Shown in pieces: positions 26,668-64,000 of a stretch of 64,000 bases of DNA. Under the pieces are notes generated by a model that was not told the DNA's origin, searched no databases, and was given only the letters and a program-made list of their open reading frames with translations. The stretch is from Limosilactobacillus sp. WILCCON 0051 (GTDB lineage Bacteria > Bacillota > Bacilli > Lactobacillales > Lactobacillaceae). Positions within the stretch are counted from its first letter, which is position 1; each line of letters begins with the position of its first letter. The translations under genes and the position numbers were made by a program. The stretch lies in contig NZ_CP154878.1 of assembly GCF_039955095.1 (NCBI RefSeq), positions 992,001-1,056,000 of the forward strand, in the 5' to 3' direction.

Positions 26668-27807
26668 TCATACGTCAAGACTATTAATCAGACCGCTGTA
26701 TCGTTCAGCGGCCTTTTTTGTTACATGCAGATAGATCTGGCGCGTAATGGTGGAATCCTTATGACCCAACCGCTTTGAGATCAGCTCAATTGGCACGCCT
26801 AGCTCAGCTAATTTAGAAGCGTGGGTATGGCGAAAAATATGAGTCGACAGCGGTTTGTCTAATTCCAACATTTTTTGAACAATTTTAAGCCGATTATCTA
26901 TTGAAAGGGGGTGAAGAAAAGTACCGTTTTTAGTTTCAACGCTAAACAAAAGTTGATCAGGCTGCTTGCCCAAACTATAAAGGCGATAAATTTTGACTGC
27001 CTTATCTGGCAGAAGGATAGTACGGTTGCTGCTTTGGGTTTTAGGGGTGCTGCTAATCGTAAACTCGCTTTTGCGTTTGTTAAAGTACTCCAACGTACAG
27101 TCAATTTTGACAAACCACTTGCCTGCTTCTTGAAAAACTTTCTTGACTTGCAGAGCGAGGACCTCACCGATTCGCATACCGGTAAGATATTGCCACATCA
27201 AGACGTCAGCATATACTAAATTAATCGCTCTAACGGCTTCTAGGACCTGTTTGACTTCATCATCATCAAGGTACTTATCTTCAATGCTTTTCGCAGAGTT
27301 ATCGCGTTTCCAATTGATTTCAAGCTGACCAATTGGGGCTGCGATATAGTCGTGCCGGTACGCATAGCGCATCAGCTGATTGATCTTAGACTTGATCTGA
27401 CCAACATAAGCATTGTTGTATCCGCGCTGATAGATCATGGCTTCTATTGTGTTGGTCAGATATTTATTGGTGATTTTAGAAACTAAAATGTCAGAAGCAA
27501 AGTTTTTCAGAATACAAGCTTTGAATTTTTTCCATTGTGCAAATGTTGAAGACTTGACCGTTTGCTGATAGTAATTATCAAATTCTTCAATCAGTTCACC
27601 GAATGTAACACCTTCTTTGATCTGACCGTCCTCAAGATAATGAAGCTTCTCTTCAATCCGCTTGTTTAGGGTTTGTTGCGCCAACTTGCGCGTGGTATTG
27701 GTTTCTTTGTCCATCGTGATTGATACGCGCGTGTACTTGAGCGTCAGAGGGTTTTTGAATTGTTCGACAAACTTAACTTTGCCGGTTTTTGTGGGTTCAG
27801 TCCACAT
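26668..27807 (-). CDS. int: Tyrosine recombinase integrase of the conjugative element
   Basis: A 379-aa phage-type integrase. An N-terminal SAM-like core-binding domain (about residues 65-160) precedes the catalytic domain with Arg in GMRIGEVLAL, HIFRHTHAS (HxxR) and the nucleophile Tyr in TRQIYLHVTK. Start ATG has AGAAGGA upstream. It reads outward to the left boundary, with the excisionase-like gene divergent. It should catalyse excision and integration of the element. Confidence 0.93.
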   Translation of the reverse strand: MWTEPTKTGKVKFVEQFKNPLTLKYTRVSITMDKETNTTRKLAQQTLNKRIEEKLHYLEDGQIKEGVTFGELIEEFDNYYQQTVKSSTFAQWKKFKACILKNFASDILVSKITNKYLTNTIEAMIYQRGYNNAYVGQIKSKINQLMRYAYRHDYIAAPIGQLEINWKRDNSAKSIEDKYLDDDEVKQVLEAVRAINLVYADVLMWQYLTGMRIGEVLALQVKKVFQEAGKWFVKIDCTLEYFNKRKSEFTISSTPKTQSSNRTILLPDKAVKIYRLYSLGKQPDQLLFSVETKNGTFLHPLSIDNRLKIVQKMLELDKPLSTHIFRHTHASKLAELGVPIELISKRLGHKDSTITRQIYLHVTKKAAERYSGLINSLDV

Positions 27808-37282: not shown

Positions 37283-37315
37283 TTTGTCTGAAGTTACGAA
37301 AGGATGGTGGTGCTA

Positions 37316-40300: not shown

Positions 40301-40318
40301 GAAGGGGGGAACGCTTAA
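37316..40318 (+). CDS. virD4: VirD4/TraG-type coupling ATPase
   Basis: About 1000 aa: two or three N-terminal membrane helices, then a TraG/VirD4 ATPase with Walker A GITRSGKGE (near residue 225) and Walker B VHFLLDEFGNLPPI (near residue 660), plus an acidic C-terminal tail. It recruits the DNA-protein substrate to the secretion channel. The insert between Walker A and B is long for the family. TTG 37316 is preferred; an in-frame ATG at 37304 touches the AAAGG signal. Its stop overlaps the next ATG (TAATG). Confidence 0.9.
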   Translation: MAFNYDRERHRKDGKQGRLIGQPIVLTIIWICWALFVGWLNCWLTAGIRATIDWFHSPDSYQFLNGQVNAQVFAILSNGWQTANLGNYQVMRSNPLIFAVIELIGAGVMLPLVIKTWLKWRPNHGNQYGNDRLTTEDEVLVQYPQIPDRGFEYDGVGGIPVSHIKATAPVFLKHHPVAWLRYYFAPEVSQLATRLPMLKNALPFVEPAKGFYSIDQTTVNSLIVGITRSGKGETLVMPLVDILSRGSEKCSMVVNDPKGELYQMSYETLRKRGYNVQVLNLQNTDFSMSYNPLQQIISFAKEGYYDETQQAVNTLSSSIYVDPNAKDKFWQNSSINLLNALILAVVDYAKRNDRWDEVTMDNVLHMMTELGSKQVNVNASGDIVPSAEELMADKSLKMPSDSSIAGQKNKLLVYFAQMQKLNEKHYSQFRQMALDSFAQSKFAGDETSGNIYSSAMEGIKIYQQSNIAKLTSKNSVNFESIGFPRTMRFRLPERYKFKTAVIEIDDDSGKKLEKRTQIVDKVGMLNYAIKAKLPDNFTIKIDFDYRKNEPDYRDAKLVVTGRKLYQRNGFTAHSFKRDPYTHQPLLKEVKLTIKQNELAGDVAEMKMDYSESPVALFLVTPPNNPSYNQLPAFAVDQIFNTIYSTALANGRKSFTRVHFLLDEFGNLPPISHMDTKVSIGLGQNLLFDIIVQNLEQLQINYSQQQADTIESNCANLLYILTESKKTAETISAKIGKRTVNVQTSSGKMGDVHGTSFSNQFISQDIMSMNDLMKLMGGEMVVLRSVYRQDQKGHSVAAMPIFDHGQTAMPFRYTFLRHEFNDQMTLSDIGIKSPHRSLDLKALRINYDNAYNQLLELMDDGQQATPVDPFGNDDSMASDQPHGAKPHLGDEDFMKEFLQPDDVFGTNDLVDDDDQIFTADELQNQELLDGTFRVVYTLLAQGLPSERRMRFLKDTHDYWSKPENNSWKSLAGLFDGKPEFFDKAKDQILQLKTETSEGGNA

Positions 40319-44207: not shown

Positions 44208-46136
44208 ATGAAACGAAAAGAAATTCTACGCTTAACGCAGGCGGGCTATGATCTTGACTTTCTGGCGCGGATTCAGCCGCAAGGCAATTTAAAGCGGCAT
44301 GCGCGCTACCTGGAAATGGGCGACGGATACGTCACGTGTCTGCGCGTCTACAAATATCCAGCACACGGACTGATGCCGTTTTGGGGCGTGCCATTAACCA
44401 ATAATGATGCAACCATGGCCGTGATCAGTCTAGGTACGGAAGACCGGACGGAAATTCTGAAGCAGCTGTCACGATCCGCAACGGAACAAAAAATTCGAGT
44501 TTCCGGCAAAGCTAAGGAAATGGATAACGTAGAAGCGTCCGGTACTTACATGGACCAAATGCGGCTGATGAGCCAGATCTCGCAGGCTAATGAGGTCATG
44601 AAACGCGTCTACATGCGTATTTTTGTCTATGCACCAACACTAGCCGAACTTGAGAAGCGGACAAAACGGCTGATTCGGGAAAACGGCCAGTTTATGATGG
44701 CTCGATATGCTGATGAGCAGCTTTCTGATTTTGAGTCGATCTTCATTCCAACGATGAGTGAGCAGGATATGCTTAATCACCCGGTTGGTGTACCAATTTC
44801 GGCCCGCTCAATGTCAGGCTCCTATCCGTTCAACCACGTCAAGCTTGAGGATCCAAACGGCTCCTACTACGGCTATACACGGACTTCTGGCGAGGTTATG
44901 TTTGATCCGTTTCAGCGGGATCGACACCGGACGCGTTCCTTTTTCTTCGTGACGGGGAATGCCGGTATGGGTAAGTCAACCCTGCTGAAAAAGCTGAACG
45001 ACGATGTTTTTGCAAGAGGGGCCTACATTCGCAACTTTGACGTCTCCAGCGAGTATACAGATCAGACGCGTGATCAGAACGGCGTCATCATCAAGCTTGA
45101 TCAGCCGGAAAACATGATCAACCCGTTTGAAGTCTTTCCTACAGTGGTAAATGACGATGGTACGGTCGACGAGATCAACTCCTTTGCCCAGCACGTAACC
45201 AAGCTCAAGAACTTCTTCAAGTTTCTGAGCGAGGACGCCAACAGTGACGATATGACGATGCTAGACAGCTGGATTCAAGATTTCTACATTGATCAGAACC
45301 TCTGGGTCCGCAATCCGCAGCAGAACGCGCGATCAATGCGCATTACGGGTCTGGATCACGATATGTACCCAACGCTGCGAGATTTCGTGCTGTACGCGAA
45401 TGAACGTCAGCGAAAAGCGGAACGTGATCCGCGTATGCGACTGACCAGCAACATGGTGACGTCAATGAACCGAATCACCTCTACTTTTGCCAACATCGAG
45501 GAATCCAAGGGCGATATGTTTGACGGCATCACCAGGTTTCCTGATCTGACGAACGAACAGGTGGTAACGTTCAACATTCAAGGGCTACTGGCCCAAGGGA
45601 AGCCGATTTTTAACGCGCAGATCTACTCGGTCTTGACGCTGTTATCCGCTGATATCATCAAAAACGGTATGAAGCTTCGCCAGCAGCTGAAAAACGGCAC
45701 GTTGGATATGTATTCGATCCCTTGGTACTACCTGAATGTGGATGAGGTTGAAAACATTATCAATCCAAAGTTTACGTTTGGCGTTGAGTTTTTGGCATCA
45801 ATGATGGAACAGATGCGCAAAAACTTCTGCGCTATCACGATGGCCGCACCGACGATCAAGGACTTGATCATGAACGGCAACTCGCATGATCCGTACGTTT
45901 TGGCCGTGCAAAAGATTTTCTCGCTGTTTCAGATTCGCTTCTTCTTCCAGATTTCTGATGACGATTTACCGCGTCTGCAGATGGCACTGGGCGGCTCAAC
46001 TACGACTGATGAGCTGCAGGGGCTGACCAAGCTGGAAAAGACGGAGGTTCTGATGAATATCAACGGTGATCGCAATGTGCAGTTTAAGGTTGAGATTACG
46101 CATGACGAGGAACGGCGGTATGGAGGTGGCATTTGA
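44208..46136 (+). CDS. virB4: VirB4-family conjugation ATPase
   Basis: The 642-aa ATPase has Walker A TGNAGMGKST near 249-258 and Walker B YYLNVDEVENII near residue 510, with the usual arginine-rich motor domain. It energises the T4SS. The family is usually about 800 aa; the missing part seems to reside in the gene upstream. RBS AGGGGGG. It overlaps the next gene (TGATG). Confidence 0.92.
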   Translation: MKRKEILRLTQAGYDLDFLARIQPQGNLKRHARYLEMGDGYVTCLRVYKYPAHGLMPFWGVPLTNNDATMAVISLGTEDRTEILKQLSRSATEQKIRVSGKAKEMDNVEASGTYMDQMRLMSQISQANEVMKRVYMRIFVYAPTLAELEKRTKRLIRENGQFMMARYADEQLSDFESIFIPTMSEQDMLNHPVGVPISARSMSGSYPFNHVKLEDPNGSYYGYTRTSGEVMFDPFQRDRHRTRSFFFVTGNAGMGKSTLLKKLNDDVFARGAYIRNFDVSSEYTDQTRDQNGVIIKLDQPENMINPFEVFPTVVNDDGTVDEINSFAQHVTKLKNFFKFLSEDANSDDMTMLDSWIQDFYIDQNLWVRNPQQNARSMRITGLDHDMYPTLRDFVLYANERQRKAERDPRMRLTSNMVTSMNRITSTFANIEESKGDMFDGITRFPDLTNEQVVTFNIQGLLAQGKPIFNAQIYSVLTLLSADIIKNGMKLRQQLKNGTLDMYSIPWYYLNVDEVENIINPKFTFGVEFLASMMEQMRKNFCAITMAAPTIKDLIMNGNSHDPYVLAVQKIFSLFQIRFFFQISDDDLPRLQMALGGSTTTDELQGLTKLEKTEVLMNINGDRNVQFKVEITHDEERRYGGGI

Positions 46137-50850: not shown

Positions 50851-51058
50851 GAAAAAGGCCAGCACTTGGCTGACCTAACCACAAGAAACGTGGTACTCGA
50901 TTAATGGAACCCTTAGTACCATTAGTAAAAGCAAAGGTGAAAGTTTGCGCCGTATTCAGGTTATCGCCCACGCCTGTTACCACTTGCGGACCCCGGGGCA
51001 GCCGGCTACCCGATCAAGTCTCTTCTTGATCCTCTAATTTAGTCGCCTTCTATTGAGT
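50851..51058 (-). ncRNA. Candidate structured RNA A
   Basis: An extended -10 (TGTTAGAAT, minus strand, plus-strand 51065-51073) starts about 208 nt ending in a terminator GGTCAGC / GCTGGCC with T run (50852-50875). The 5' half has hairpins GATCAAG / CTTGATC and GGGTAG-CCGG-CTGCCC and matches RNA B; the 3' half differs. A further stem ACCAC / GTGGT precedes the terminator. No Rfam family is recognised by eye. Confidence 0.6.
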
Positions 51059-51087
51059 AACTGTATTCTAACATGTTACAAACAAAA

Positions 51088-51270
51088 GAAAAAGCCTGCG
51101 AATTAATCGTAGGCTTTTGTTCTGCTCATTGAGTCGTGGAACAGAGAGGACGAGAGTATACGCCGTATTCAGGTTACGCCTGCTCATGTTTCCAATACGC
51201 AGACCCCGGGGCAGCCGGCTACCCGATCAAGTCTCCTTGATCCTTTAATTTGCAGGTCCTTCTTCTTTAC
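51088..51270 (-). ncRNA. Candidate structured RNA B, paralogue of RNA A
   Basis: Same extended -10 TGTTAGAAT (51277-51285), same 5' hairpins and conserved GTAACCTGAATACGGCG, with a different 3' part and its own terminator (AAGCCTACG / CGCAGGCTT). The two genes lie in tandem on the minus strand, 30 bp apart. Confidence 0.6.
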
Positions 51271-51397: not shown

Positions 51398-52200
51398 CTG
51401 GAAGCTCAGCAGTCAAAAAACTTTCTTTAAAAATAATGACTCCGAAGCTTCCTGAATGTGTTGGGGGACCTGCGGGTGTCCGTGTGCAATTCGCATTCCT
51501 AACTGAATATTTACAGGCAAGAAGAGCAATCTTTTTCGATTGGCCATCGTTAATTGCCGCTCAGCAGCGACTCTGCGCCGTTAGCCACCCGAAGCGTCCG
51601 TGATTTCGAAGCACACACGGAGTGAAGTTTACCTAAAGAGCAAACAACACCCGGAGCAGGAATTGTAGTCAACAACAGGTATGCGACACCTTCTGCCACA
51701 GCAGGCGGTAAAAAAGTGGCTGGATGTCTCGGAAATGCAACAGACCATCCTTTAGATCAAACGCGTTTTTCATGGGTTATCGCGAAGTTTTGCTCGAAAT
51801 TGTAGTAGAGCAATCGTACGAATCAACTGTATGATCTGAAGGAGCAAGGGCGAGATGAGCTTAAACGGTTTGCCGAAATTTAAGTCTTAATTGCTTAATA
51901 TTGCTAAATATTAAGATGTTATTGAGAAGTAAAAAATAGGGGTGTAATGGTGTGCGCACTTTTTGCCGCAGATAGGCAAGGTGCGCAGGTACCCCAGGGG
52001 GTGGCTTGAGGTCAAGCCATAACGGGGAAGTTAAGTATAAGTGGGCTTAATGGCAGGCAAGCTGTAGAGGCTGCAGGGTGCTGATATTAAGGGACAAGGG
52101 AAATGCGCACTGAATAGCAAGCAGGCTAGATAGCTGGATAGAGCTGCTAGAGAGTAAACAAGAGACCTCGCGCCAGAGACGACGCGGGCTATTATCAGAT
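51398..52200 (+). ncRNA. Candidate large noncoding RNA or long 5' leader
   Basis: Downstream of promoter F there are about 800 nt without a plausible gene; the one 82-codon ORF (51355) overlaps the promoter and has no RBS. Many local stems exist, such as TTGCTC / GAGCAA (51793-51816) and the G-rich block 51950-52040. It could be a large structured RNA of the kind found in lactobacillus phages and plasmids, for example ROOL-like, or a leader of parM. No family identified by eye. Confidence 0.4.
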
Positions 52201-52213
52201 TTAAATATGTATA

Positions 52214-52295
52214 ATATTATTTTATATATCTTTTATTTGAAAATACCCTTGTAATTAAAACTAGTCGTATATATAATAGATATATAAAATAATAT
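52214..52295. promoter_or_regulatory. 18-bp perfect inverted repeat upstream of parM (operator or centromere)
   Basis: ATATTATTTTATATATCT at 52214-52231 and its exact reverse complement at 52278-52295 surround a very A/T-rich 46-bp centre just before parM. Such a site fits ParR binding (parC) and autoregulation. Confidence 0.6.
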
Positions 52296-52329
52296 AACAA
52301 ATATACGTTAACTATTTTGAGGTGATTTT

Positions 52330-53547
52330 ATGGAATATATTTTGAACGTAGCAAATGATTTAGGGTATGGCTCAATCAAAGCAACCTTAAATGATGAAAA
52401 GGTCAAGATGCCATCGGTGATTGCCAGCGAGAAGCCGCAGGATATTACGGAACCGGTATCGTTTGATGATCAAGAACAGCAAGCGGCCTACATGAAAGAC
52501 TTTATCAATAAGATGGACGTATCGGTTTCAAGCTCAGTCGTAACCAAGCAGGGTCGTTATTTGATTGGCCAGGCAGCGGTTAACAGCAATCTGCCATTGA
52601 CGGCCTTTGACGTTAACGATTTCGCCGGTAAGAGCGACGATGATCTGGCGATGGTCCTGACGCTAAGTCTGATTGCCGGCAAGCGGGTCAAGGACGCCTT
52701 CTTCAACAGCGAAGACCTCGGCGAGACGCTGAAGGTTACGGTCAACATGGCCACGGCACTGCCCGTTGCGGAAGGGAAGAATACCGGTGTGATTGACCGC
52801 TATAAGAATAAGTTTCTAGGCAAGACGCATACGGTAACGTTCCACAACTTCAAGGATCCAATCACGGTAGCCATCAAGTTCCGGTCGGTCTACGTAGCTT
52901 TGGAAGGCGAAGTAGCGCAGCTGTATATCAAGTACGCTGATAAAAAATTCAAGGAAACGCTGGTGGCCGACTTGAAAGCCAACTACGCCGATATGGCCGA
53001 AATTACGGCTGATGATATCGTCCAAACACAGAACGTGTTGGGAATCGATATCGGCGAGGGTACGACTGATCTGGTTATGCTTGTGAACAACCTGGTCAAC
53101 GCTAAGGCCTCTACGTCGCTGGCCAAAGGCTATGGCAACGTCCTGCAGCTGGCCAATGACGTTCTGCAGAAACAGCAGATGGGCTTGTTCGATAGCCGGG
53201 CTCAATTGCAGAAATATCTGGCCCAGCGCGTCAGTCCATTCGCACGCAAGCATCAGCAGCGCGTGCAGAAGGTCGTTTATGAACAATTGGATCCGTTCGC
53301 TGACGAGATTGTTACCGCAGTCTCAAAAACGATGCGGGCGGCTAACGCTCAAGCAGAACTGATCTATGTCTACGGTGGCGGCTCGATCCCAATGGCTACG
53401 CAGTCCAGTCTGCGAACCAAGCTGGCGGAGAAGCTGCGCCGCTTTACCGGTGGCGATGAGGTGCCGATTATCTGGATCGCGCCGGAATATGCTCAGTTTC
53501 TAAACGAAAAGGGCCTGGAACTGCTCTTGAGTGCAATTTCTGAATAG
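52330..53547 (+). CDS. parM: ParM/Alp-type actin-like segregation ATPase
   Basis: A 405-aa protein with the actin fold: phosphate-1 loop ANDLGYGSIKATL at the N terminus, phosphate-2 GIDIGEGTTDLVM near residue 238, and adenosine motif YVYGGGSIPM near 345. It would form filaments that move element copies apart when bound to ParR at a centromere. Presence on an integrating element suggests a plasmid-like circular stage. RBS GAGGTG. Confidence 0.85.
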   Translation: MEYILNVANDLGYGSIKATLNDEKVKMPSVIASEKPQDITEPVSFDDQEQQAAYMKDFINKMDVSVSSSVVTKQGRYLIGQAAVNSNLPLTAFDVNDFAGKSDDDLAMVLTLSLIAGKRVKDAFFNSEDLGETLKVTVNMATALPVAEGKNTGVIDRYKNKFLGKTHTVTFHNFKDPITVAIKFRSVYVALEGEVAQLYIKYADKKFKETLVADLKANYADMAEITADDIVQTQNVLGIDIGEGTTDLVMLVNNLVNAKASTSLAKGYGNVLQLANDVLQKQQMGLFDSRAQLQKYLAQRVSPFARKHQQRVQKVVYEQLDPFADEIVTAVSKTMRAANAQAELIYVYGGGSIPMATQSSLRTKLAEKLRRFTGGDEVPIIWIAPEYAQFLNEKGLELLLSAISE

Positions 53548-53558
53548 GTGGTGATTGA

Positions 53559-53930
53559 ATGGCTCGAAAAAACTATAGCTTCGGCTTTCCGGTCGGCTCA
53601 ACGGCCTATGAATGGCTAGAAGCGCAGGACAACAAAACCTTGTCGCTAAGCCTGGCAATCGATTTTCTCGTTCAAGTGTATGGCAAGGGCGATTTCATGC
53701 AGGTTGTGATGGGTGCCATGGCCAACAACGTGGCAGATCCGGCTGATCTGCTGGCAGAAAAGGTCAATCAGATGAACCAACAGCCGGATCCAAAGCAGTC
53801 GGCTTCAGAGAATGCTTCTGAAGAAACCACAACGCCGGTCAAAAAGTCACCGGAAGCTAAGACGCCCAGTGGACCAGTATCAGGCAAAAAGAAGATTGAC
53901 GTCAGCATGCTTTCCACGGAGCAGAACTAA
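53559..53930 (+). CDS. parR: ParR-like adaptor
   Basis: A 123-aa protein 11 bp after parM. The N-terminal 60 residues (KNYSFGFPVGSTAYEWLEAQ, then LSLSLAIDFLVQVYG) fit a ribbon-helix-helix DNA-binding domain; the rest is Pro/Ser/Lys-rich and ends KKKIDVSMLSTEQN, probably the ParM-binding tail. Assigned mostly by context. Confidence 0.65.
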   Translation: MARKNYSFGFPVGSTAYEWLEAQDNKTLSLSLAIDFLVQVYGKGDFMQVVMGAMANNVADPADLLAEKVNQMNQQPDPKQSASENASEETTTPVKKSPEAKTPSGPVSGKKKIDVSMLSTEQN

Positions 53931-53940
53931 GCAGAACAGT

Positions 53941-53968
53941 GGCAATCAGGAGACTGGTTGCCTTTTTT
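53941..53968 (+). terminator. Intrinsic terminator between parR and the Cas9 homologue
   Basis: GGCAATCA / TGGTTGCC stem (53941-53948, 53955-53962) and six T. Transcription of the Cas9 homologue from the par promoter must read through it. Confidence 0.75.
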
Positions 53969-53985: not shown

Positions 53986-56900
53986 ATGACTACTAGCAAA
54001 GATTACAGTCTGGCATTAAGCATTGCATCAGATCGCATCGGCTATGCCGCAATCGACAATAACTTTAAGGTGATTCATCGTGACCGCAAGCGAGTTGTAG
54101 GCGTCAGCAAGTTCACACCGGGCGAGACGGCTGAAGAAACCCGGCTGAAACGCACCAGTCGCCGCAATACGGCACGGCGTCGGCGGCGAATCAGCTATCT
54201 AAACGATTTTTTCGCGCCGCACCTGGCAAAAGTCGATCCAGACTTTCTGCACCGCCTGAAGTACTCTTTCGTCAACAATGAAGGCCTGTTCAGCGAACCT
54301 AAGCTGACGGCTCAATATTTTCAAAAGTATCCTACGATCTACCACCTGCGCCAGGCGCTGATGACGGAGAAACGACAATTTGATCTGCGCTTGATTTATT
54401 TGGCCATTCATCATCTGGTCAAATACCGGGGGCATTTTCTAAGCGATCTGCCAATGGCTAGCTTTGCGGAAGATGACGCACTGGATCTCGATGTCTGCCT
54501 GCAGACGATCAACTCACTGCTGGCCGCGGATCCTGCCACGGCAATGATTGAGCTGAATGCTGATACCAAAACCGGTACGCAGCTGAAAACGCTGCTGCTC
54601 GATAAGCAAGCGAAAAAAGGGCAGCTTAAAAAAGCCGCAGTAGAGCTTTTGATCAACAGCAGTGAAAAAGGCAAGCTGCTCAAGCTGGAAAAACAGGCGG
54701 CCACCGCAGTCGTCAACGCCATTACCGGCGACGACTTCAGTATTGATCAGCTGTATCGGCCGGAAACGCCAACTGGCATCAAACTTAATTTCGGCTCCGA
54801 AACGTTTGATCAAGACGTACTTGAACTGGGCGATCTGCTTACGTCGGAACGGCAAGCAATTCTGCAGGTGCTGGAACGACTGTACAGCCGTTTAACCTTA
54901 GAACGACTCGTTCCGGACGGCAAAAGCATTTCGCAGGCTAAGATTGAAGCCTACGATCGCTATGATCAGCAGCTGCACGTACTGAAACGCTTCTGGCTGG
55001 ACGCTGATCTGAAAGACTATCGAATCCTAAAGGACGCCTATGACCGCTATGCCGGCAAGAAGCGCAATGCTAGACCAGACAAGAACCTGACGCGCGAACA
55101 GTTCAATGATGTGGTCAAAAAGGTCTTAAAACAGCAACGCTATCAAGCAGTTCCGGCAGCTCAGCAGCTGCTTGCTTGGATTGATGCCGATAATTTTCTG
55201 GTTAAGCAGCGGATTCGGGAAAACAGCGCCATTCCGCACCAACTGATTCAGCATGAGCTGGACCTGATTATTAACAATCAGTGGCAGTACTATCCATTTC
55301 TGGCAGAGCCGAATCCGGTTGAAGAACGACGTGACGAAGCGCCTTACAAGCTGGATGAGCTGATTGCCTTTCGGATTCCTTACTACATTGGTCCTTTGAC
55401 GGAAGCAGGGCAGAACCGCTTTGCTTGGATGATCCGCAAGCCAGACGAAAACGGCACGATTAATCAGCAGGAAATTACGCCATGGAATTTCACGCAAATG
55501 GTTGATCAGGCCGCGTCCGCCAATGCGTTTATCCGCAATATGACGGCGCATGATACCTATCTGCTGGCCGAAGACGTACTTCCTAAAGCCAGTCTGCTGT
55601 ATCAGCGCTTTAAGGTCTTAGATGAGCTGAATACGATTCGAATCAACGGCCAGCAACGGTTAACCGTCGCGCAGAAGCAAAGCATCTATCGTGATTTGTT
55701 CATGCAGACCAAGACGGTTACTGTAAAAAGACTGGCCCGATATATGGTCGATCAAAAGTGGTTCAAGGGAACTGACGCTGATAATCGAACCAGTCTACCG
55801 ACAATCAGCGGTCTAACTGATCCAAAACGGTTTGTCAGTTCTTTAAGCAGCTATTTAGACCTGCGGCGAATCTTAGGCAGTCAGGCAGACAAGCCGAAGC
55901 ATTATCGTGATCTGGAGCGGATCATCGAGTGGTCAACCGTTTTCCCCAGCGGTCATATCTACAAGGAAAAGCTGAATGAGCTGCACTGGCTGGGCGTTAT
56001 GGAGCGCAGTCAGCTGGCGGGCCTGCACTATGCCGGCTGGGGACGGCTTTCGAACCGACTGCTGACCAAGCTGTATGACAACGAAGGACGATCGATCATG
56101 GATCTACTCTGGCAGACCAATCAAAACTTCATGCAGATCATTTCCAAACGGGTTTTCCAAGCACAGCTGCAGGCAGAAAACGCGGCCTATCTGAGCAATG
56201 ATACGCTGGATAGCGTGCTGGACCGGGCCTATCTTTCGCCAGTCAATAAAAAGGCGATTCGTCAGGCACTCTATGTCATTAACGATGTGCAGAAATTTAT
56301 GGGGTCTGCGCCCAAAACCATCAGCATTAATTTTGTCCGTCAGCAGCAGCCGTCAACTGCTTCAAATGAGCGCAAAAAGAAGCTCCAGAAGCTTTACGAT
56401 GCCTTGCCAGGGGAATTTGTCAAACAGCACAAAGAACGCTGTCAGAAGCTTAAAATGGCGCTTAAACAAACGAAGACGATTGATGATCGCTTGTATCTGT
56501 ATTTCCAACAGTTCGGTACGGATCTCTATACTGGTGGAAGCTTAAATCAAGACGATCTTGATCTTTATGCGGTCTCACCGATTCTGCCTATGAATCTGAC
56601 CAACGATGACTCAATGAACAATAAGGTGCTGACGGCTCGGAAAGTTGCTGCTGCAGATTGGACGACGGTCCGTACTAAACGCCGGCAGCTTTGGGACGAT
56701 CTGGCACGGGCGGGACTGCTGCCGGTCTACAAGAAAAACCGCCTGCTGCAGGATCCGCAGCATTTAAGCGATGTTGAACGGCTGCACTTACTGAATCGCG
56801 CGCTGAATGAAAAATCTACGGTGGCCAGATTTACGGCAGCACTTTTGACCGATCGCTATCCGCAGGTTGAGGTCATCGAAGTACGGCAAGCAATGATCAA

Positions 56901-58098
56901 TCAGCTGCGCAGAGGGTGGCAGATGCCACGCATGCCATTGATCAACGACTACGATGCCGGTATGGACGCCTACCTAATTGGTGCGGTTGGTCAATACCTG
57001 TATCAGGCCTATCCGAAACTGCGCAGTTTCTTCGTTTACGGCAGATATCAGCGCACGCCGGTTGACAGTGAGCTGAAGAATCGTCAGTTCATTCGCCGCC
57101 TGCGCGACTTAAACCTGCTATATCCGCTCGTGGCCAAACGCAAGCCGGCAACATTAAGCAGGGAACGGGAAGTGATGGCTGATCAGATTGCAAGAGAAGC
57201 ACGAATCGTTTACGGCTATCACTACATGATCGTGCACCAGATGGCCACGGAGTTCAGGGGCGCCTTGTTTGATGCCACCAAGGTCTCACACTTGAAAGCC
57301 ACTGACAAGTTCATTCCGCTGAAGAAGGGCCTGCCAACCACTATTTATGGCGGATATGCCAAGAGCAACATGGGCTTTATGACGATTCTGCGCGTTGAGC
57401 CAAGTCAGCGTCAAAAACCGGCCTACCTGCGTGTGCTTGGAATTCGGCGGATCGATTCTGACCGCATCAATCAGCTGCTGGCAGCCAACCGCCGGCAGGA
57501 GGCAGAACAGGCCATCATCAAAGCCGTACAGATCTATCTGACCAAGGGAGAACGGCAGAGCCGGCTAACGGTGGTCGTGCCTAAGGTGCTGCATGGTCAA
57601 GAAGTCAAGACAATGGCCGGCAGCTATCAAATGAGCAGCTTCAAGTACAAGCGCAGCAGCAGTCAGCTGATTTTGACGCCGCAGACGCGCTGGGAGCTGT
57701 ACCAGGCAATGGCTGGCCGAATGGACGATGAACAGGCTGAACGAGTGCTACTACAGGCCTATGACGAAATTCTAAGCCAGCTGGATCACTTTACTCTGTT
57801 CATGCAGGCAGGGAACCAGCCAGCGCCGGCCGAACGCTTAAAAGCCTATCAGCAAGTCTTTGAGCAATTGCCATTAAGGAATGGTCTCAAGGGATCCGAC
57901 AAACTGACGATCTTCCGGAACATCTTGATGAGCCTGCATGCCGATGCGTTCTTTGCTACACTCACGGATAAGCAGGGACGGCCGATTATTAAGAATTTTG
58001 GACTGTTTTCAACAACAGCAATCAGTCTGCCGATTGGAACCAAACTCTGGTTCAGCTCGCCGACTGGCCTGCACCGCAGCTATAAATCATTAGGATAA
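53986..58098 (+). CDS. Cas9 homologue (type II-A like) with inactivated RuvC and HNH sites
   Basis: At 1370 aa it equals SpCas9 (1368). Conserved parts: RuvC-I strand YSLALSIASDRIGYAAID (6-23), Arg-rich bridge helix (RLKRTSRRNTARRRRRIS, 53-70), REC lobe start (RLIYLAIHHLVKYRGHFL), LYLYFQQFGTDLYTGG before HNH, DAYLIGAVGQYLYQAYPKL of RuvC-III and a C-terminal PI-like region ending PTGLHRSYKSLG. Catalytic changes in SpCas9 numbering: D10 to Ser12, E762 to Asn782, H983 to Ala991 (D986 kept as Asp994), D839 to Ser864, H840 to Pro865, N863 to Ala888. It should bind a guide RNA and DNA but not cut. Placed behind parMR; no cas1, cas2, csn2 or array. Codon use resembles the transfer genes. Confidence 0.92.
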   Translation: MTTSKDYSLALSIASDRIGYAAIDNNFKVIHRDRKRVVGVSKFTPGETAEETRLKRTSRRNTARRRRRISYLNDFFAPHLAKVDPDFLHRLKYSFVNNEGLFSEPKLTAQYFQKYPTIYHLRQALMTEKRQFDLRLIYLAIHHLVKYRGHFLSDLPMASFAEDDALDLDVCLQTINSLLAADPATAMIELNADTKTGTQLKTLLLDKQAKKGQLKKAAVELLINSSEKGKLLKLEKQAATAVVNAITGDDFSIDQLYRPETPTGIKLNFGSETFDQDVLELGDLLTSERQAILQVLERLYSRLTLERLVPDGKSISQAKIEAYDRYDQQLHVLKRFWLDADLKDYRILKDAYDRYAGKKRNARPDKNLTREQFNDVVKKVLKQQRYQAVPAAQQLLAWIDADNFLVKQRIRENSAIPHQLIQHELDLIINNQWQYYPFLAEPNPVEERRDEAPYKLDELIAFRIPYYIGPLTEAGQNRFAWMIRKPDENGTINQQEITPWNFTQMVDQAASANAFIRNMTAHDTYLLAEDVLPKASLLYQRFKVLDELNTIRINGQQRLTVAQKQSIYRDLFMQTKTVTVKRLARYMVDQKWFKGTDADNRTSLPTISGLTDPKRFVSSLSSYLDLRRILGSQADKPKHYRDLERIIEWSTVFPSGHIYKEKLNELHWLGVMERSQLAGLHYAGWGRLSNRLLTKLYDNEGRSIMDLLWQTNQNFMQIISKRVFQAQLQAENAAYLSNDTLDSVLDRAYLSPVNKKAIRQALYVINDVQKFMGSAPKTISINFVRQQQPSTASNERKKKLQKLYDALPGEFVKQHKERCQKLKMALKQTKTIDDRLYLYFQQFGTDLYTGGSLNQDDLDLYAVSPILPMNLTNDDSMNNKVLTARKVAAADWTTVRTKRRQLWDDLARAGLLPVYKKNRLLQDPQHLSDVERLHLLNRALNEKSTVARFTAALLTDRYPQVEVIEVRQAMINQLRRGWQMPRMPLINDYDAGMDAYLIGAVGQYLYQAYPKLRSFFVYGRYQRTPVDSELKNRQFIRRLRDLNLLYPLVAKRKPATLSREREVMADQIAREARIVYGYHYMIVHQMATEFRGALFDATKVSHLKATDKFIPLKKGLPTTIYGGYAKSNMGFMTILRVEPSQRQKPAYLRVLGIRRIDSDRINQLLAANRRQEAEQAIIKAVQIYLTKGERQSRLTVVVPKVLHGQEVKTMAGSYQMSSFKYKRSSSQLILTPQTRWELYQAMAGRMDDEQAERVLLQAYDEILSQLDHFTLFMQAGNQPAPAERLKAYQQVFEQLPLRNGLKGSDKLTIFRNILMSLHADAFFATLTDKQGRPIIKNFGLFSTTAISLPIGTKLWFSSPTGLHRSYKSLG

Positions 58099-58107
58099 CT
58101 CAAAATC

Positions 58108-58147
58108 AAAAAGGCGAATCGCTCCTGCTGGAACGGTCCGCCTTTAT
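58108..58147 (+). terminator. Terminator of the Cas9 homologue
   Basis: AAAAAGGCGAATCG-type stem with CGGTCCGCCTTTATTT (58110-58146). Confidence 0.7.
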
Positions 58148-58158
58148 TTAACGACAAA

Positions 58159-58404
58159 ACAGCCGCTAGAATCATCTAACGGCTGCCTGGCTGGCACAAG
58201 GTTGATTGTATTCAAGTCAACCACCATCGGCTAAAGTCGATGGCTTGTGGGCAAACACCCCAGTATTGAGTATCTGAACCACAATTTGCATAGATACAGA
58301 CGATTTACTCAAACAGCCACGGCTGCTTGAGCAGTGATCATCTAATTACCAATGCCTTTTACGTCCCCAGGTTGCCATAGGGACGATATATCTCATTACT
58401 ATCT
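58159..58404 (-). ncRNA. Candidate structured RNA D, convergent with the Cas9 homologue
   Basis: On the minus strand an extended -10 TGATAGAAT (-10 at 58411-58416) precedes about 246 nt ending in the terminator CAGCCGTTAGA / TCTAGCGGCTG with TTTTGT (58159-58185). Internal stems: CGTCCC / GGGGACG, CTCAAGCAGCC / GGCTGTTTGAG, CCATCG / CGATGG and GGTTGA / TCAACC. No ORF. It could be a guide/tracr-like RNA for the Cas9 homologue, an IS605-derived RNA, or unrelated. Confidence 0.5.
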
Positions 58405-58455
58405 ACAAGTATTCTATCATAGTAGGCCTATCTATCCCATGACTAAAATCACGGG
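58224..58455 (+). mobile_element. Possible IS200/IS605-derived remnant (two like-oriented hairpins)
   Basis: CCATCG-GCTAAAGT-CGATGG (58224-58243) and CCCATGA-CTAAAA-TCACGGG (58436-58455) share the CTAAAnTC loop and orientation, as do the subterminal palindromes of IS200/IS605 elements. No tnpA or tnpB is present. May be a non-autonomous derivative overlapping RNA D. Confidence 0.35.
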
Positions 58456-58521
58456 ATTTCCGGCTAGACATAATTAAATAGTTTGAGTATACGGTACTTC
58501 AGCTGATTAGGCAACCGAAAG

Positions 58522-58617
58522 CTAACGAAGATCAGCCTCGATAATCTCAACGTCGGAGTTCTTGCCGGCCAAAAAATCCTGGTATTCCTGAAGCGATTTT
58601 TCGATAATCGAAGTCAT
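58522..58617 (-). CDS. Short 31-aa ORF, possibly a gene remnant
   Basis: Encodes MTSIIEKSLQEYQDFLAG then KNSDVEIIEADLR, behind AGAGGGA. Could be a truncated gene or small antitoxin. It lies divergent from the Doc/Fic-like gene. Confidence 0.4.
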   Translation of the reverse strand: MTSIIEKSLQEYQDFLAGKNSDVEIIEADLR

Positions 58618-58695
58618 AACCATTCCCTCTTTCCCTAAACCTCAGCGTTTGCCTTAATATTATAGATAATTATACCTGCAAATAAGGAGAATTTT

Positions 58696-59358
58696 ATGTT
58701 AGAAGATAAGTTTGAGCTGACCAAAGATCTAAATAGACGTTTTGCGAGAAGTAACTTAACCCATCTGGTTTATATCACTTCACGGTTTGAAGGTATAAAG
58801 GCGACTCTTTCCCAGACGCAAATGATAATCGATGGATTAGGGGTTGATGATGTACCTACTGACGATATAAATATTATTGTTCAACTGAAACGAGGTTGGC
58901 AATATGTAATCAACTCTGATGAAAAACTTGATTTAGATTTTTTAAAAAACGTAAATCGAATTGTAGCATTAAACGAATCTTTGGCACCAGGCGAGTTGAG
59001 AACTGGTGAAGGAGGAGTTGATACCGAATTAGGCGAATATAAGCCGCCAATGGTTAATAGTGAAGCAGAAGCAGGATACTTGAGCGAGTTATTGGCAAAC
59101 AAAAATAGTTCAATAACTGATAAGTCGTTAACTCTGATGTATCACTTAATGCGGAACCAAATCTTTTGGGACGGCAACAAGCGAACCGCAACATTAGTCG
59201 CTAATAAGCTTATGATCGACAATGGGGCTGGGCTAATAAGCGTTCCGCTTGATAAGTGGCCGGAATGGAATAATTTAATTGCCAAGTACTACATGACGAA
59301 TGATATATCAAAATTAAAACATTGGACTTACGAGAATGGCATTGAGGTTCATATATAG
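58696..59358 (+). CDS. Fic/Doc-like protein lacking the catalytic histidine
   Basis: A 220-aa protein with an N-terminal helical part (SNLTHLVYITSRFEGIKATL, like Fic_N) and a Fic-fold motif NQIFWDGNKRTATLVANKL. In Doc/Fic proteins the motif starts H-x-F; here His is Gln. The rest of the anion-binding loop (DGNKR) is intact. It may be a degenerate toxin, an inhibitor, or a protein with altered chemistry. A+T-rich compared with the element. RBS AAGGAG. Confidence 0.7.
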   Translation: MLEDKFELTKDLNRRFARSNLTHLVYITSRFEGIKATLSQTQMIIDGLGVDDVPTDDINIIVQLKRGWQYVINSDEKLDLDFLKNVNRIVALNESLAPGELRTGEGGVDTELGEYKPPMVNSEAEAGYLSELLANKNSSITDKSLTLMYHLMRNQIFWDGNKRTATLVANKLMIDNGAGLISVPLDKWPEWNNLIAKYYMTNDISKLKHWTYENGIEVHI

Positions 59359-59618: not shown

Positions 59619-62600
59619 ATGGCAAATGTCGAAACTACAAAGAAACAACTTAGAGAAATGGGCTTTTCACCAAAAGATGGTGTGGAAAATAAGTATGAAT
59701 ATGCCCTCTACTATAAAGATCAGTATGTAGACACAATTACGGTGGATTTTAACGAAAAAAAAACAGGATTAGTTAATTGGGGACATGTAAAATCTTTAGA
59801 TCGTAAGACGAGTTCAGTTTTAAATAAGCCAGAGTTTATAATTCAATTATTTTGGTATATTAGACTGATTAAATCAGGATACAGGCCGGAAAATATTGCG
59901 ATTGAAAAAGCAATTCAGTTAGGGAGAAAACCTGCGTATATTGACTTAGTAGTATTTTCACCTAGTGGTGTACCATTTATGGTCTTAGATGTTAAAACTC
60001 CTGGAAAAGAATTTAAACGAAATTCAAAAGAATTAAGTAGAAGTCAAGGACAGATAGCAAGTTATTACGCACTAAGTTCCAATCTGCAGTATGTGGGGGT
60101 AGTTTCTGCCGACTTTAACGACACGTATATTAGTCCTGAACAATTTATAGTAACAACTTCTGAATGGAAAAAATATGGAAGCTTAGAGGAATATGTACAA
60201 AATGGTAACGTACATATTCTTAATGAAGCCTTTGAGATATCTCCATCTATCTTGCCTTATAGTTTGGAAGGAATTCAGAGAAAACCAAAGGACCTTATAG
60301 ATTTGGATGAGTCTACTTCCTCATTGATGTTTCACAATTTTCTGAAAATTCTTAGGAAGCATGGAATTTCTGATAAAACGAATGCTTTTAACAAAGTGCT
60401 GAATCTATTCGTAGCTAAAATTGTTGATGAGTTTAATACCCCTGAATCAGAAAATTTATCTTTTCAGAAGCGAAATAATGAATCACTAGAAGATTTGTAT
60501 GCACGGATTGAGTCTTTATACTCACAAGGACTACGTGACTTCATTCAAATATATATCGACACCGATAAAGATATGGATGAAATTAAGCAGCTTATTTCTA
60601 CGTTTGCTGGAACCAAGACGGACGATTTAATAAAGAAAATAGAACATTTACAGAGTAAAACCAACTCTGACTTTCAATTTAAAGATGTTTATGATGAAAA
60701 AACATATCATGATAATTTAATAATCCTTAAAGAACTGGTAGACCTTATAGCGCCGTATAAACTAAAATATGCGAAAAAACAACAATTTTTAGGCGACTTT
60801 TTTGAAAATATTCTATCCAATGGATTTAAGCAAGAAGCGGGCCAATTCTTTACACCAGTTCCTTTAGCGAAGTTCATGGTTGAATCATTACCACTAAAAG
60901 AAAAGACTAATCATATAATGAATGATTCAATGACTCGGCAGCTCTTACCAGAGATGATCGATTTTGCTTCAGGTAGTGGACATTTTCTTACTGAATATAT
61001 GGATCGTATGCAACGTATAATTTCTAATATAGATATTACCGGTCTATCGAATGCCAATAAAAAAATGTTCCAACAGTTTAAGACTAATCCATTCGAATGG
61101 TCGAGAAATTATGTTTATGGGTTGGACGTTGATTATAGATTGGTAAAAACGTCTAAAGTTAGTACCTTTTTGAATGGTGATGGTGATGCCATAATCCGTC
61201 GGGCAAACGGATTAGATTCATTCACCTCGCCAGATTATGTAGGCGATTTACATGTTGACAAGAAGCAATATGCAAATCCGGTTTTCGATGTTTTAATCGC
61301 AAATCCACCGTATCATGTCGATGAATTTAAATCTGAACTACCAAATCTAGAAGAGGATTTTAAATTAGGCAGTCTAATTACGGAAAACAGTTCAGAAATT
61401 GAAGCTTTATTTATTGAAAGAGCCTCGCAGTTATTGAAGGCGACAGGTTTGATGGCAATTGTTTTACCTTCAGCTATCCTAAATACAGAAAATAAAATAT
61501 ATGTTCAAGCCAGACAGATCTTATTACAGCGATTCAAGATAGTTGCAGTAATGAAGAATCCAAGTAGGTCTACTTTTGCGGCAACCAAAGTCGAAACAGT
61601 TACAATTTTTGCAATTAGGAGAAAGGATGCCGATATAAGAAGGATTCAAGAGGATATTGAACACTTGTTAAATGGGACTTCTATAAATGACATTACCCTT
61701 AATGGCAATGAAAAATGTATTAGTTCTTATCTAAGAGAGGTTTTTGGAAATAACTTTGGTATTTCTGACTACGAAAAGCTATTGAATGATACCTATGATG
61801 GGGAAAACCAAACAGCTAACGACTATCTTAAGCAATATAAAAAATTGAAAGAGCCATTAACTAAAACTGAGTATATAAAGCAAGAAGAGATTACTAGACT
61901 ACTAAATTATTCTTTATCAATGCATGAATGTGTCATTATACAAACACCAGATAATAAGAAAGATGAAGAAGAATTATTATTGGGTTATAAATTCAACACT
62001 CGTAGAGGTCACGAAGGAATTCATCCAAGAATTAAAAATTATTCAATTGAAGATCTTACGCTTCTATATGGCAGTAAGGGTAATTTCTTGAATAAAGTTG
62101 TTCACGATGCTTTCTTAGGGAAAGCTAAAAGTACCGTAATTGATGATGTCGCTAAGCCTTACTTCAGAGTTACCAGGTTAGACAAACTATTGGATTTTAG
62201 TGTTAAGGACAACACGTTTAAAATTTCGCTTAATAAAGCTCTTAAAGAAACTGTTTCAGATTATGGCGATGAAGGAACAATCTCACTAGAAAAAGTTGCG
62301 GAACTTCTAAATGGTGATGCCATAAAAGCATCAGCGGTATCCCCGGGTGAGATACCGGTTATTGCAGGTGGCAGGGAACCTGCATATTATACGGCTGAGC
62401 CAAATCGTCTAACTCCAACAATAACGGTTTCTAAAAGTGGAGAATATGCCGGCTACATTGCATACCATAGTGATCCAATATTTGCATCAGATTGTTTTAC
62501 CATTACTGCAAAAGAAGATTCGGGATACACTACTTTGGATCTATACTATCTGTTAAAAAACAAACAGGATGATGTATATTCTTTTGCTACAGGTTCAGTA

Positions 62601-63353
62601 CAGAAGCATGTTTATGTTAAAAACATGGAAAGATTCAAGATACCGAATGTCAAAATACAAAAAGATAAGGTTACAAACCTTATATCAAAGCTCAAAGCAA
62701 CAGCAGACGAACAGAAAAACTTATCTATAAAATTGCAAAAATTACAAAGAGACCTGCTTGGTTCCATTGATGCAATCTACACCAAGAATTCTGATAAGTT
62801 AATTACACTAGGGGAGTTGGAATCAGAAGGTATTATTAAAGTAAAAGGCGGTAAAAGGATTCCTAAAGAGTATGACTATGCTCCGTTTAAAACCAATCAT
62901 TTTTATCCAGTAATTAGTGATTTTGAGAATAATAGTATTAACTTAGAAAATGCAAAGTATATTGATGATGAGACATTTGATCACATTAAAAATTATATAT
63001 TAAATGATTCTGATGTTTTCATTTCTGCTGCTGGAACTATTGGAAAAGTTGGTATGATTCCGCGTTTACAAGATAAAAACGTTACTATCTCTTTAACTGA
63101 AAATGCACATAAGATTGTCACAAAAAATCCCAACAAGATTAATAGTCGATACCTTATGTTTATACTGAACGCAACTCAAGTGCAAAAATCAATTCTTGAT
63201 TCGATAACAAAAACAGGTACACCAAAATTAGCCATTGATTCCTTGAGAAATATTAAAATTCCTTTTATATCGCAAGAAGAACAAACTAAGATAGCTGGCG
63301 AATTAAATGATATTAATGATCAAATTGCCTATGATCTTACCTTGTTAAAATAA
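59619..63353 (+). CDS. Single-chain restriction-methylation-specificity enzyme (type IIG/type I-like)
   Basis: A 1244-aa fusion. The N terminus has a PD-(D/E)xK nuclease like HsdR_N (AYIDLVVFSPSGVPFMVLDV, D109 and D124-x-K126). The middle is an N6-adenine methyltransferase with motif I DFASGSG (448-454) and motif IV NPPY (562-565). The C terminus carries two HsdS-like target-recognition regions (about 900-1060 and 1080-1240) separated by helices. All catalytic residues look intact. It would cut unmodified DNA and methylate its own sites. A+T-rich; expression appears to be under the upstream repeat switch. Confidence 0.9.
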   Translation: MANVETTKKQLREMGFSPKDGVENKYEYALYYKDQYVDTITVDFNEKKTGLVNWGHVKSLDRKTSSVLNKPEFIIQLFWYIRLIKSGYRPENIAIEKAIQLGRKPAYIDLVVFSPSGVPFMVLDVKTPGKEFKRNSKELSRSQGQIASYYALSSNLQYVGVVSADFNDTYISPEQFIVTTSEWKKYGSLEEYVQNGNVHILNEAFEISPSILPYSLEGIQRKPKDLIDLDESTSSLMFHNFLKILRKHGISDKTNAFNKVLNLFVAKIVDEFNTPESENLSFQKRNNESLEDLYARIESLYSQGLRDFIQIYIDTDKDMDEIKQLISTFAGTKTDDLIKKIEHLQSKTNSDFQFKDVYDEKTYHDNLIILKELVDLIAPYKLKYAKKQQFLGDFFENILSNGFKQEAGQFFTPVPLAKFMVESLPLKEKTNHIMNDSMTRQLLPEMIDFASGSGHFLTEYMDRMQRIISNIDITGLSNANKKMFQQFKTNPFEWSRNYVYGLDVDYRLVKTSKVSTFLNGDGDAIIRRANGLDSFTSPDYVGDLHVDKKQYANPVFDVLIANPPYHVDEFKSELPNLEEDFKLGSLITENSSEIEALFIERASQLLKATGLMAIVLPSAILNTENKIYVQARQILLQRFKIVAVMKNPSRSTFAATKVETVTIFAIRRKDADIRRIQEDIEHLLNGTSINDITLNGNEKCISSYLREVFGNNFGISDYEKLLNDTYDGENQTANDYLKQYKKLKEPLTKTEYIKQEEITRLLNYSLSMHECVIIQTPDNKKDEEELLLGYKFNTRRGHEGIHPRIKNYSIEDLTLLYGSKGNFLNKVVHDAFLGKAKSTVIDDVAKPYFRVTRLDKLLDFSVKDNTFKISLNKALKETVSDYGDEGTISLEKVAELLNGDAIKASAVSPGEIPVIAGGREPAYYTAEPNRLTPTITVSKSGEYAGYIAYHSDPIFASDCFTITAKEDSGYTTLDLYYLLKNKQDDVYSFATGSVQKHVYVKNMERFKIPNVKIQKDKVTNLISKLKATADEQKNLSIKLQKLQRDLLGSIDAIYTKNSDKLITLGELESEGIIKVKGGKRIPKEYDYAPFKTNHFYPVISDFENNSINLENAKYIDDETFDHIKNYILNDSDVFISAAGTIGKVGMIPRLQDKNVTISLTENAHKIVTKNPNKINSRYLMFILNATQVQKSILDSITKTGTPKLAIDSLRNIKIPFISQEEQTKIAGELNDINDQIAYDLTLLK

Positions 63354-63732: not shown

Positions 63733-63761
63733 GATGTTCTCCTTGTTTTAGGGTAAAAGAA

Positions 63762-63889
63762 AAGGCCAGCACTAAGCTGACCCTGACCGCAAACCGAGTG
63801 CGGTACTACATATGAAAAGCTTGGGCGTTTGCCCTTGCGTGATTTTTACTTGGGTATCACTTCAGCTATGCTCTACCTTGGTAGTTATA
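63762..63889 (-). ncRNA. Candidate small RNA C upstream of the membrane protein
   Basis: A -10 (TATTAT, plus-strand 63897-63902) precedes about 128 nt ending in CCGCA / TGCGG and GGTCAGC / GCTGGCC hairpins with a T run. These last two hairpins closely match the 3' end of RNA A. It may be a separate sRNA or a terminated leader of the gene at 63732. Confidence 0.45.
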
Positions 63890-64000
63890 ATAGCATGAAT
63901 TTTATCGAATATCAATATGATATTGATTAAAAAGCTAAAATATTATTTTAGCAATTAAATGAAGTGATACCGATCAAAAACAAAAGTACTGCCTTTCTTT

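Follow-up and report, generated by a model that had tools for sequence, protein, structure and literature searches.

What might a Cas9 do on a mobile element once both of its nuclease centres have been replaced? The question is raised by a 64,000-nucleotide stretch of the genome of Limosilactobacillus sp. WILCCON 0051 (the whole of which is referred to here as the window), in which an integrative conjugative element (ICE) carries a gene for a Cas9 homologue, termed dCas9, with substitutions in the RuvC and HNH centres alike. We consider it probable, at roughly 60%, that dCas9 serves as effector in a nuclease-free type II CRISPR (clustered regularly interspaced short palindromic repeats) system, and that this system, borne by the ICE and aimed at rival mobile elements, acts in the manner of Cas12m (type V-M) or of type IV-A systems. 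The gene at issue is the following:

53986-58098, plus strand: nuclease-dead Cas9 (P0001, 1370 amino acids), assigned from profiles, alignment and a partial structure model

A full-length Cas9 with replaced catalytic residues

The dCas9 frame is uninterrupted over its 1370 codons, and three profile libraries agree that its product is a full-length Cas9. NCBIfam TIGR01865 (cas_Csn1) scores 696.9 bits over residues 7-1361, against a curated cut-off of 100, and Pfam reports Cas9_REC (420 bits), Cas9_RuvC (53.6), Cas9_PI (38.4) and HNH_4 (25.1, cut-off 22), with the bridge helix at 23.0 bits, under its cut-off of 26.3; the REC lobe, the bridge helix and the domain that interacts with the protospacer-adjacent motif (PAM) are still recognisable. 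In an alignment of 232 proteins, for which the SpCas9 yardstick was taken from vector record KY563785, the protein carries D10S, E762N, D837A, D839S, H840P, N863A and H983A (SpCas9 numbering) and retains D986 and N854, in agreement at every named residue with the initial annotation, which had described an intact 1370-codon Cas9 with both centres destroyed. Further changes are S15R and H982D. Six of the seven scored catalytic residues are replaced, leaving neither the RuvC nor the HNH centre intact as a Cas9 nuclease would have them, and the protein presumably does not cut DNA. Structure prediction had been proposed as a check on this annotation: an AlphaFold2 model of residues 1-1200, built on 41 sequences (mean predicted local distance difference test score 78.1, predicted template modelling score 0.55), matches SpCas9 structures best (7z4j_B, expectation value (E) 2.5e-60, template modelling score 0.68 by query, root mean square deviation 11.6 over 1280 columns). 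As modelled, the overall Cas9 fold is retained, with the placement of domains uncertain.

Homologues were collected by three protein searches (best 120 of each; about 8,000 word-sharing candidates scored), giving 227 database proteins; the window and host Cas9s bring the set to 229, and three yardsticks bring the alignment to its 232 rows. Thirteen of the 229 are dead, namely P0001 and 12 database proteins (P0001-P0007, P0009-P0011 and P0140-P0142). E762 and D839 are lost in all 13 and D10 in 12, and the HNH residue His840 is still present in eight, indicating that loss has advanced further in the branch of P0001. Elsewhere, none of the seven scored residues is replaced in 215 of the 232 rows (gaps not being taken as losses), and P0041, P0084, P0103 and P0110, outside the 13, have one or two catalytic substitutions each.

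The dead Cas9s form a single clade (SH-aLRT 100) in two quick trees, which took in 10 and 9 of the 13. The first drew a long-branch warning (P0098 and P0005 joining the dead rows); the second, computed under a mixture model and rooted on the Spy and Listeria Cas9s, gave the same clade with no such warning. One origin is also consistent with a shared short HNH segment, N854-W883 spanning 24-25 residues in all 13 dead proteins versus at least 28 in 219 others. A thinned set of 82 other Cas9s has 108 invariant columns. Of the 44 that fall in RuvC, HNH and L2, 27 are changed in at least one of nine thinned dead Cas9s, versus 11 of the 64 elsewhere (p = 4e-6; the L1 linker is counted with the 64, and the domain borders are those we take to be correct), and the eight columns lost in all nine lie without exception in RuvC or HNH. 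Twelve residues that we assume to contact guide RNA or DNA (R63, R66, R70, R74, R78, K163, R165, R403, Y450, R661, N692 and Q695) are retained in all 13.

Judged by sequence, dCas9 is not one decayed copy beside intact close relatives, the outcome against which the initial annotation had warned; loss of catalytic residues in both centres is common to a clade of 13, with lengths of 1356-1385 amino acids in every cluster and identities to P0001 down to 36-44%. Contig searches recovered no further member: P0001, P0005, P0009 and P0010 as queries found no related locus in viral contigs, nor did P0001 in genome contigs, and the dead-clade alignment returned 11 loci from genome contigs whose catalytic residues are intact in each where covered. 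Among 60 Cas9 open reading frames from 56 returned loci, replaced catalytic residues occur in the window's own only, truncated ends apart.

Two side observations concern other homologues. P0110, from a metagenome-assembled genome of Lentilactobacillus diolivorans and outside the dead clade, has E762 replaced by His and N863 by Ser, perhaps an independent partial inactivation; and Cas9 genes lie in separate pieces in two genomes of the same genus (L009/L014 in G034, L012/L013/L017 in G037).

An array and a candidate tracrRNA on the same element

The element carries its own CRISPR array, which runs from window position 63946 to about 64613 and comprises ten degenerate 36-nt repeats and nine spacers with a 66-nt period. 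It lies 5.8-6.5 kb from dCas9 on the same element, so that array and effector occur together as in a type II CRISPR-Cas system, and is followed, in that order and likewise on the minus strand, by a candidate trans-activating CRISPR RNA (tracrRNA):

63946-63981, minus strand: terminal degenerate repeat of the ICE array, with nine more repeats past the window end
64012-64613 in window numbering (L081:6013-6614), CRISPR RNA (crRNA) strand minus: nine further repeats, from reading the array
63982-64000, minus strand: start of spacer S0, with S0-S8 running on past the window end
63756-63874, minus strand: candidate tracrRNA, with anti-repeat (63844-63870), nexus-like hairpin CAAGGGCAAACGCCCAAG, second hairpin and terminator-like hairpin

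Eight of the spacers S0-S8 are of 30 nt and one is of 68 nt, within which one repeat has seemingly been lost. A 17-nt motif from the tracrRNAs of active Lactobacillaceae loci has six matches in the window, at 3-4 mismatches, of which only that at 63835 (minus strand) combines a nexus-like hairpin (AATCACGCAAGGGCAAACGCCCAAGCTTTT) with a flanking anti-repeat. In computed duplexes with this anti-repeat, nine ICE repeats reach -33.4 to -44.2 kcal/mol and the degenerate end repeat -25.4, compared with about -11 to -14 kcal/mol on average for shuffled repeats (strongest -27.5). A scan of 118 kb for pairing with the repeats (23,592 forty-base tiles, the 120 best by one repeat being rescored with nine and sense array tiles set aside) gave the anti-repeat -38.8; the only better tile was the complement of a solitary repeat discussed below, and the next unrelated tile scored -26.7. 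The RNA at 63756-63874 is likely, from its sequence, to be the tracrRNA of the ICE array. Rfam models gave no match above the gathering score over the window and L004.

A separate guide-RNA candidate, a stretch after dCas9 with strong predicted folding (58140-58660, minus strand, z -6.2), was rejected as an insertion-element relict, 12 more copies of a 165-184-base part of it occurring in the genome; the relict lies directly after dCas9 at 58215-58478 and is presumably of IS605 type.

The host genome, a single contig (C1) of 2.36 Mb, has a type II-A locus of its own some 200 kb from the element, with an array, cas1 and a Cas9 of 1396 amino acids (C1:842597-846787) that is 36% identical to dCas9 and has all seven scored catalytic residues intact. 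In keeping with the genus, the Cas9 of another genome of this group is almost the same as one from Limosilactobacillus fermentum. The RNAs of the two systems pair poorly with each other: the host repeat reaches -35.1 kcal/mol with the host anti-repeat versus -14.5 with that of the ICE, and between the ICE repeats and the anti-repeat of the host the range is -7.9 to -19.7. A search of the whole genome for Cas1 found no loci other than those at C1:813 kb and C1:847 kb, both of them beyond what is known of the element. Of the cas1, cas2 and csn2 genes expected of a type II-A locus, cas1 was the one searched by model; on its absence from the stretch of the element known so far, the dCas9 locus does not qualify as type II-A. 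The second host cas1, at G000:C1:813019, points to another CRISPR system.

The ICE system resembles the type II-A systems of Lactobacillaceae in Cas9 family and architecture, in its 36-nt repeats and 30-nt spacers, and in a similar anti-repeat RNA motif (AATCA..CAAGGGC..GCCCAAG). It differs from them in the replaced catalytic residues of both centres, in its degenerate repeats, in the lack of cas1 from the known part of the element, and in the position of the anti-repeat RNA, which follows the array on the array's own strand, whereas in the active Lactobacillaceae loci examined the tracrRNA lies directly downstream of cas9 on the opposite strand. The initial annotation had argued for selection on RNA-guided DNA binding without cleavage; the dead clade, the retained binding residues and the element's own array and anti-repeat lend this support at the level of sequence. 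The array, most of which lies past the window end, had gone unnoticed in that annotation.

Spacer targets and the choice between explanations

Targets of the array were sought in 50 genomes of the same genus, the host's included (at most nine candidate places scored per genome), and in 396 genomes of the family (two places scored per genome). Among the former, contig 12 of one genome (G032) matches spacer S3 at 30/30 (E 8.0e-9) and S2 at 26/30, and contig 23 of that genome matches S2 at 27/30 at two sites, together with a shifted S3 variant at 24/30 ungapped. At both places S2 lies 200-370 bases from S3. In each contig the sites follow a MobA/VirD2-type relaxase gene, 0.6-1.5 kb downstream, and one of the two also has a NikA/MobC-like gene alongside; these loci are presumably mobilizable elements and rivals of the ICE. 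In the family-wide search, S7 matches at 29/30 (E 3.8e-7) inside a PIF1-helicase gene of genome G111, phage relatives of that helicase being less than 60% identical. With the array reversed as a control, the best E over the 396 genomes was 2.9e-4, and 18 genomes had a match at E ≤ 0.02; with the array as it stands there were 36, the host's among them. The S3 and S7 matches stand out from this control and most weaker matches do not. Near one targeted locus, L109:10840-12759 encodes an elongation-factor-G-like protein, which resembles a tetracycline ribosomal-protection protein.

On the preferred explanation, dCas9 would load crRNA from the array together with the candidate tracrRNA, processing being left presumably to host RNase III. 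The complex would recognise a 3' PAM, for which the three target flanks (ATGAGCG, GCAAGCA and TCAAATA) all fit NNRAR, three sites being too few to define a PAM, and would bind matching sequences in rival mobile elements without cutting them. Such stable binding might act as a roadblock to the rivals' transcription, replication or transfer, and new spacers would have to be supplied in trans by an adaptation module of the host, which has two cas1 genes. Of the three roles put forward in the initial annotation, that of a programmable repressor is best supported as regards rival elements, by the spacer matches; its other half, repression of host genes, is taken up below.

Several observations weigh against this explanation. 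Matches were obtained for 3 of the 9 spacers only; S2 by itself does no better than the control, has its mismatches near the PAM side, and is counted only because it lies close to S3 at both places. The S2 and S3 sites are mostly intergenic and under no long gene, so that promoter repression is not evident, and the S3 variant is inside an open frame of 114 codons. G111 is 65% complete and its target contig measures 3.2 kb, which makes the nature of the S7 target uncertain. Among 72,556 plasmid records the strongest match (E 0.005) was not convincing, and neither was that among the best 40 of 56 phage records with a match (E 0.8); viral contigs scanned for the repeat and for portions of S7, S3 and S5 returned nothing. 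As to the RNA, a covariance model built from 30 active tracrRNAs did not find it at E ≤ 5, and an ungapped count including G:U pairs ranks two unrelated sites above the anti-repeat and one level with it. In the protein, R71 is altered in 8 of the 13 dead Cas9s and Q926 in P0001-P0004.

Among published systems, interference without cutting is reported for Cas12 (types V-M and V-C) and for type IV (PMC12669027, PMC11656645). Type V-M Cas12m shares with the ICE system interference by binding without cleavage (PMC11013384) and plasmid-borne cases (PMC11656645), but its effector is of the Cas12 lineage, unrelated to Cas9. Type IV-A systems likewise sit on mobile elements, often lack an adaptation module, carry spacers against other elements and are reported to interfere via non-coding targets, but do so with a class 1 complex and a DinG helicase (PMC11656645). 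The passages of the 2025 CRISPR classification that were searched name, among such Cas9 variants, only II-C2 proteins with a dead RuvC and an active HNH. Our searches of the openly licensed literature, with passages of PMC12669027, PMC11656645 and PMC10910872, showed no Cas9 dead in both centres; this scope omits most subscription papers and does not prove absence. If the preferred explanation is correct, dCas9 would have arisen by evolution long before its engineered counterpart, lactic acid bacteria would gain from this family a source of natural dCas9s that come with dual RNAs of their own, and mobile elements competing without DNA cutting would be open to test.

Two further proposals concern the element's own transfer. 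Past the window, a solitary 35-nt CRISPR repeat (L094:4981-5015; C1:1074980) lies 23 nt ahead of the first gene of the relaxosome operon, which ends in a MobL relaxase, and its computed pairing with the ICE anti-repeat is -35.7 kcal/mol. Aligned with the leader of a sibling element in another genome (G026), in which no dCas9 match was found, the repeat corresponds to a 34-column gap; ahead of the gap 56 bases of the two leaders are 89% identical, and behind it 312 bases are 67% identical. Absence of the repeat from the sibling leader is read from this alignment, a pattern search having missed even the element's own solitary repeat, which is one base shorter. The 30 nt ahead of the repeat, matched 26/30 in G026 with mismatches on the PAM side, are part of a hairpin-rich stretch that may be the origin of transfer (oriT). 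A broad proposal, which we think unlikely, is that an ancient Cas9 family lost both centres once and became a nuclease-free type II effector in the wars between mobile elements, and that here it also times its element's own transfer through the solitary repeat between the putative oriT and the relaxosome genes. That the repeat instead lets tracrRNA and dCas9 regulate the conjugation genes, with the array secondary, seems decidedly unlikely: the position of the repeat, its pairing and the gap in a sibling without dCas9 speak for such control, but this is a single case, none of the array's spacers has a site in the element at up to five mismatches (one site with eight lies at 51619), and the spacer matches in other genomes would be left unexplained.

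It is highly improbable that the ICE array and tracrRNA serve the host's or another active, cutting Cas9, with dCas9 incidental or protecting the element. The host Cas9 has the residues for it and the array sequence itself does not demand dCas9, but anti-repeat and nexus differ between the host and ICE RNAs, and exchange of dual RNAs between distant Cas9s is usually poor.

Another of the roles first suggested, a decoy that would shield the element by soaking up the crRNA:tracrRNA on which the active host Cas9 depends, is disfavoured, and we regard it as highly improbable. The host does own a II-A system with an intact Cas9, and such a role has been proposed for phage II-C2 Cas9s with an inactive RuvC, which are likewise element-borne and catalytically damaged with a tracrRNA nearby (PMC10910872, PMC12669027). 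As described there, the phage proteins keep an active HNH, have no array and use a tracrRNA that matches host repeats, whereas the ICE system has both centres hit, its own array and the weak pairing with host RNA given above. In addition, none of 44 host spacers (the degenerate array tail excluded) matches the window, the stretch searched with them, at up to six mismatches, and dCas9 shares only 36% identity with the host Cas9.

Repression of host chromosomal genes is scarcely credible, no array spacer having a convincing match in the host's own genome. TldR, of the TnpB lineage, offers a parallel. It is RNA-guided, is carried on a mobile element and acts without cutting, repressing genes of its host, and differs in that its target is host flagellin (PMC13418256). 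Just as hard to credit is a functionless, decaying former Cas9, for although the array repeats are degenerate and one seems lost, lengths and binding residues are kept across the dead clade, and the GC content at third codon positions of dcas9 (0.585) is close to that of element genes (VirB4-type gene 0.61, parM 0.63; host cas9 0.43).

The conjugative element and its cargo slot

One chromosomal segment carries genes for an integrase, an HTH_17 protein, a topoisomerase, a type IV secretion system pilin, VirD4-like and pLS20_p028-like proteins and a MobL relaxase, a gene set that identifies the element as an ICE; its ends were not found, no direct repeat fit to be an attachment (att) site having turned up. 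Its features, and those around dCas9, are as follows:

26668-27807, minus strand: tyrosine integrase (profile match)
37304-40318, plus strand: VirD4-like coupling protein (profile match)
44208-46136: VirB4-type ATPase, named from size and position (Pfam gives AAA_16 only)
C1:1076303, beyond the window: MobL relaxase
52330-53547, plus strand: ParM/Alp7A-like actin, upstream of dCas9 and present also in the sibling element without dCas9
53559-53930, plus strand: orf123 (123 amino acids), probable ParR-like partner, with no Pfam match and a relative in the sibling (59.5 bits)
53941-53962, plus strand: terminator-like hairpin between orf123 and dCas9
58696-59358, plus strand: Fic-domain protein, cargo neighbour
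59619-63353, plus strand: type IIG restriction-modification enzyme, cargo neighbour

The slot that dCas9 occupies is one for cargo genes: parM and orf123 precede it, and its surroundings include Fic and two type IIG restriction enzymes. In the sibling, which keeps the parM/orf123 pair (parM 85% identical), the place of dCas9 is taken by the two genes of a type II restriction-modification system. The remaining suggested role, that of a DNA anchor for the ParMR apparatus, finds no support, parM and orf123 being present there with no dCas9 match. No link to dCas9 was found for Fic, for parM or for a duplication at 50939-51251.

Three minor observations concern this region and the array flank. A small protein at L081:6784-7300 resembles orf123 by eye, and the repeated AT-rich motifs that come after it may mark a second partition-like site beside the array. 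Within the duplication, two stretches of about 100 bp (50939-51040 and 51152-51251) are copies of each other at a spacing of 213 bp; they have terminator-like hairpins and may represent a duplicated small RNA. Before parM, positions 51920-52210 hold no long gene and are weakly structured (z -2.1), with long inverted repeats next to them at 52205-52304.

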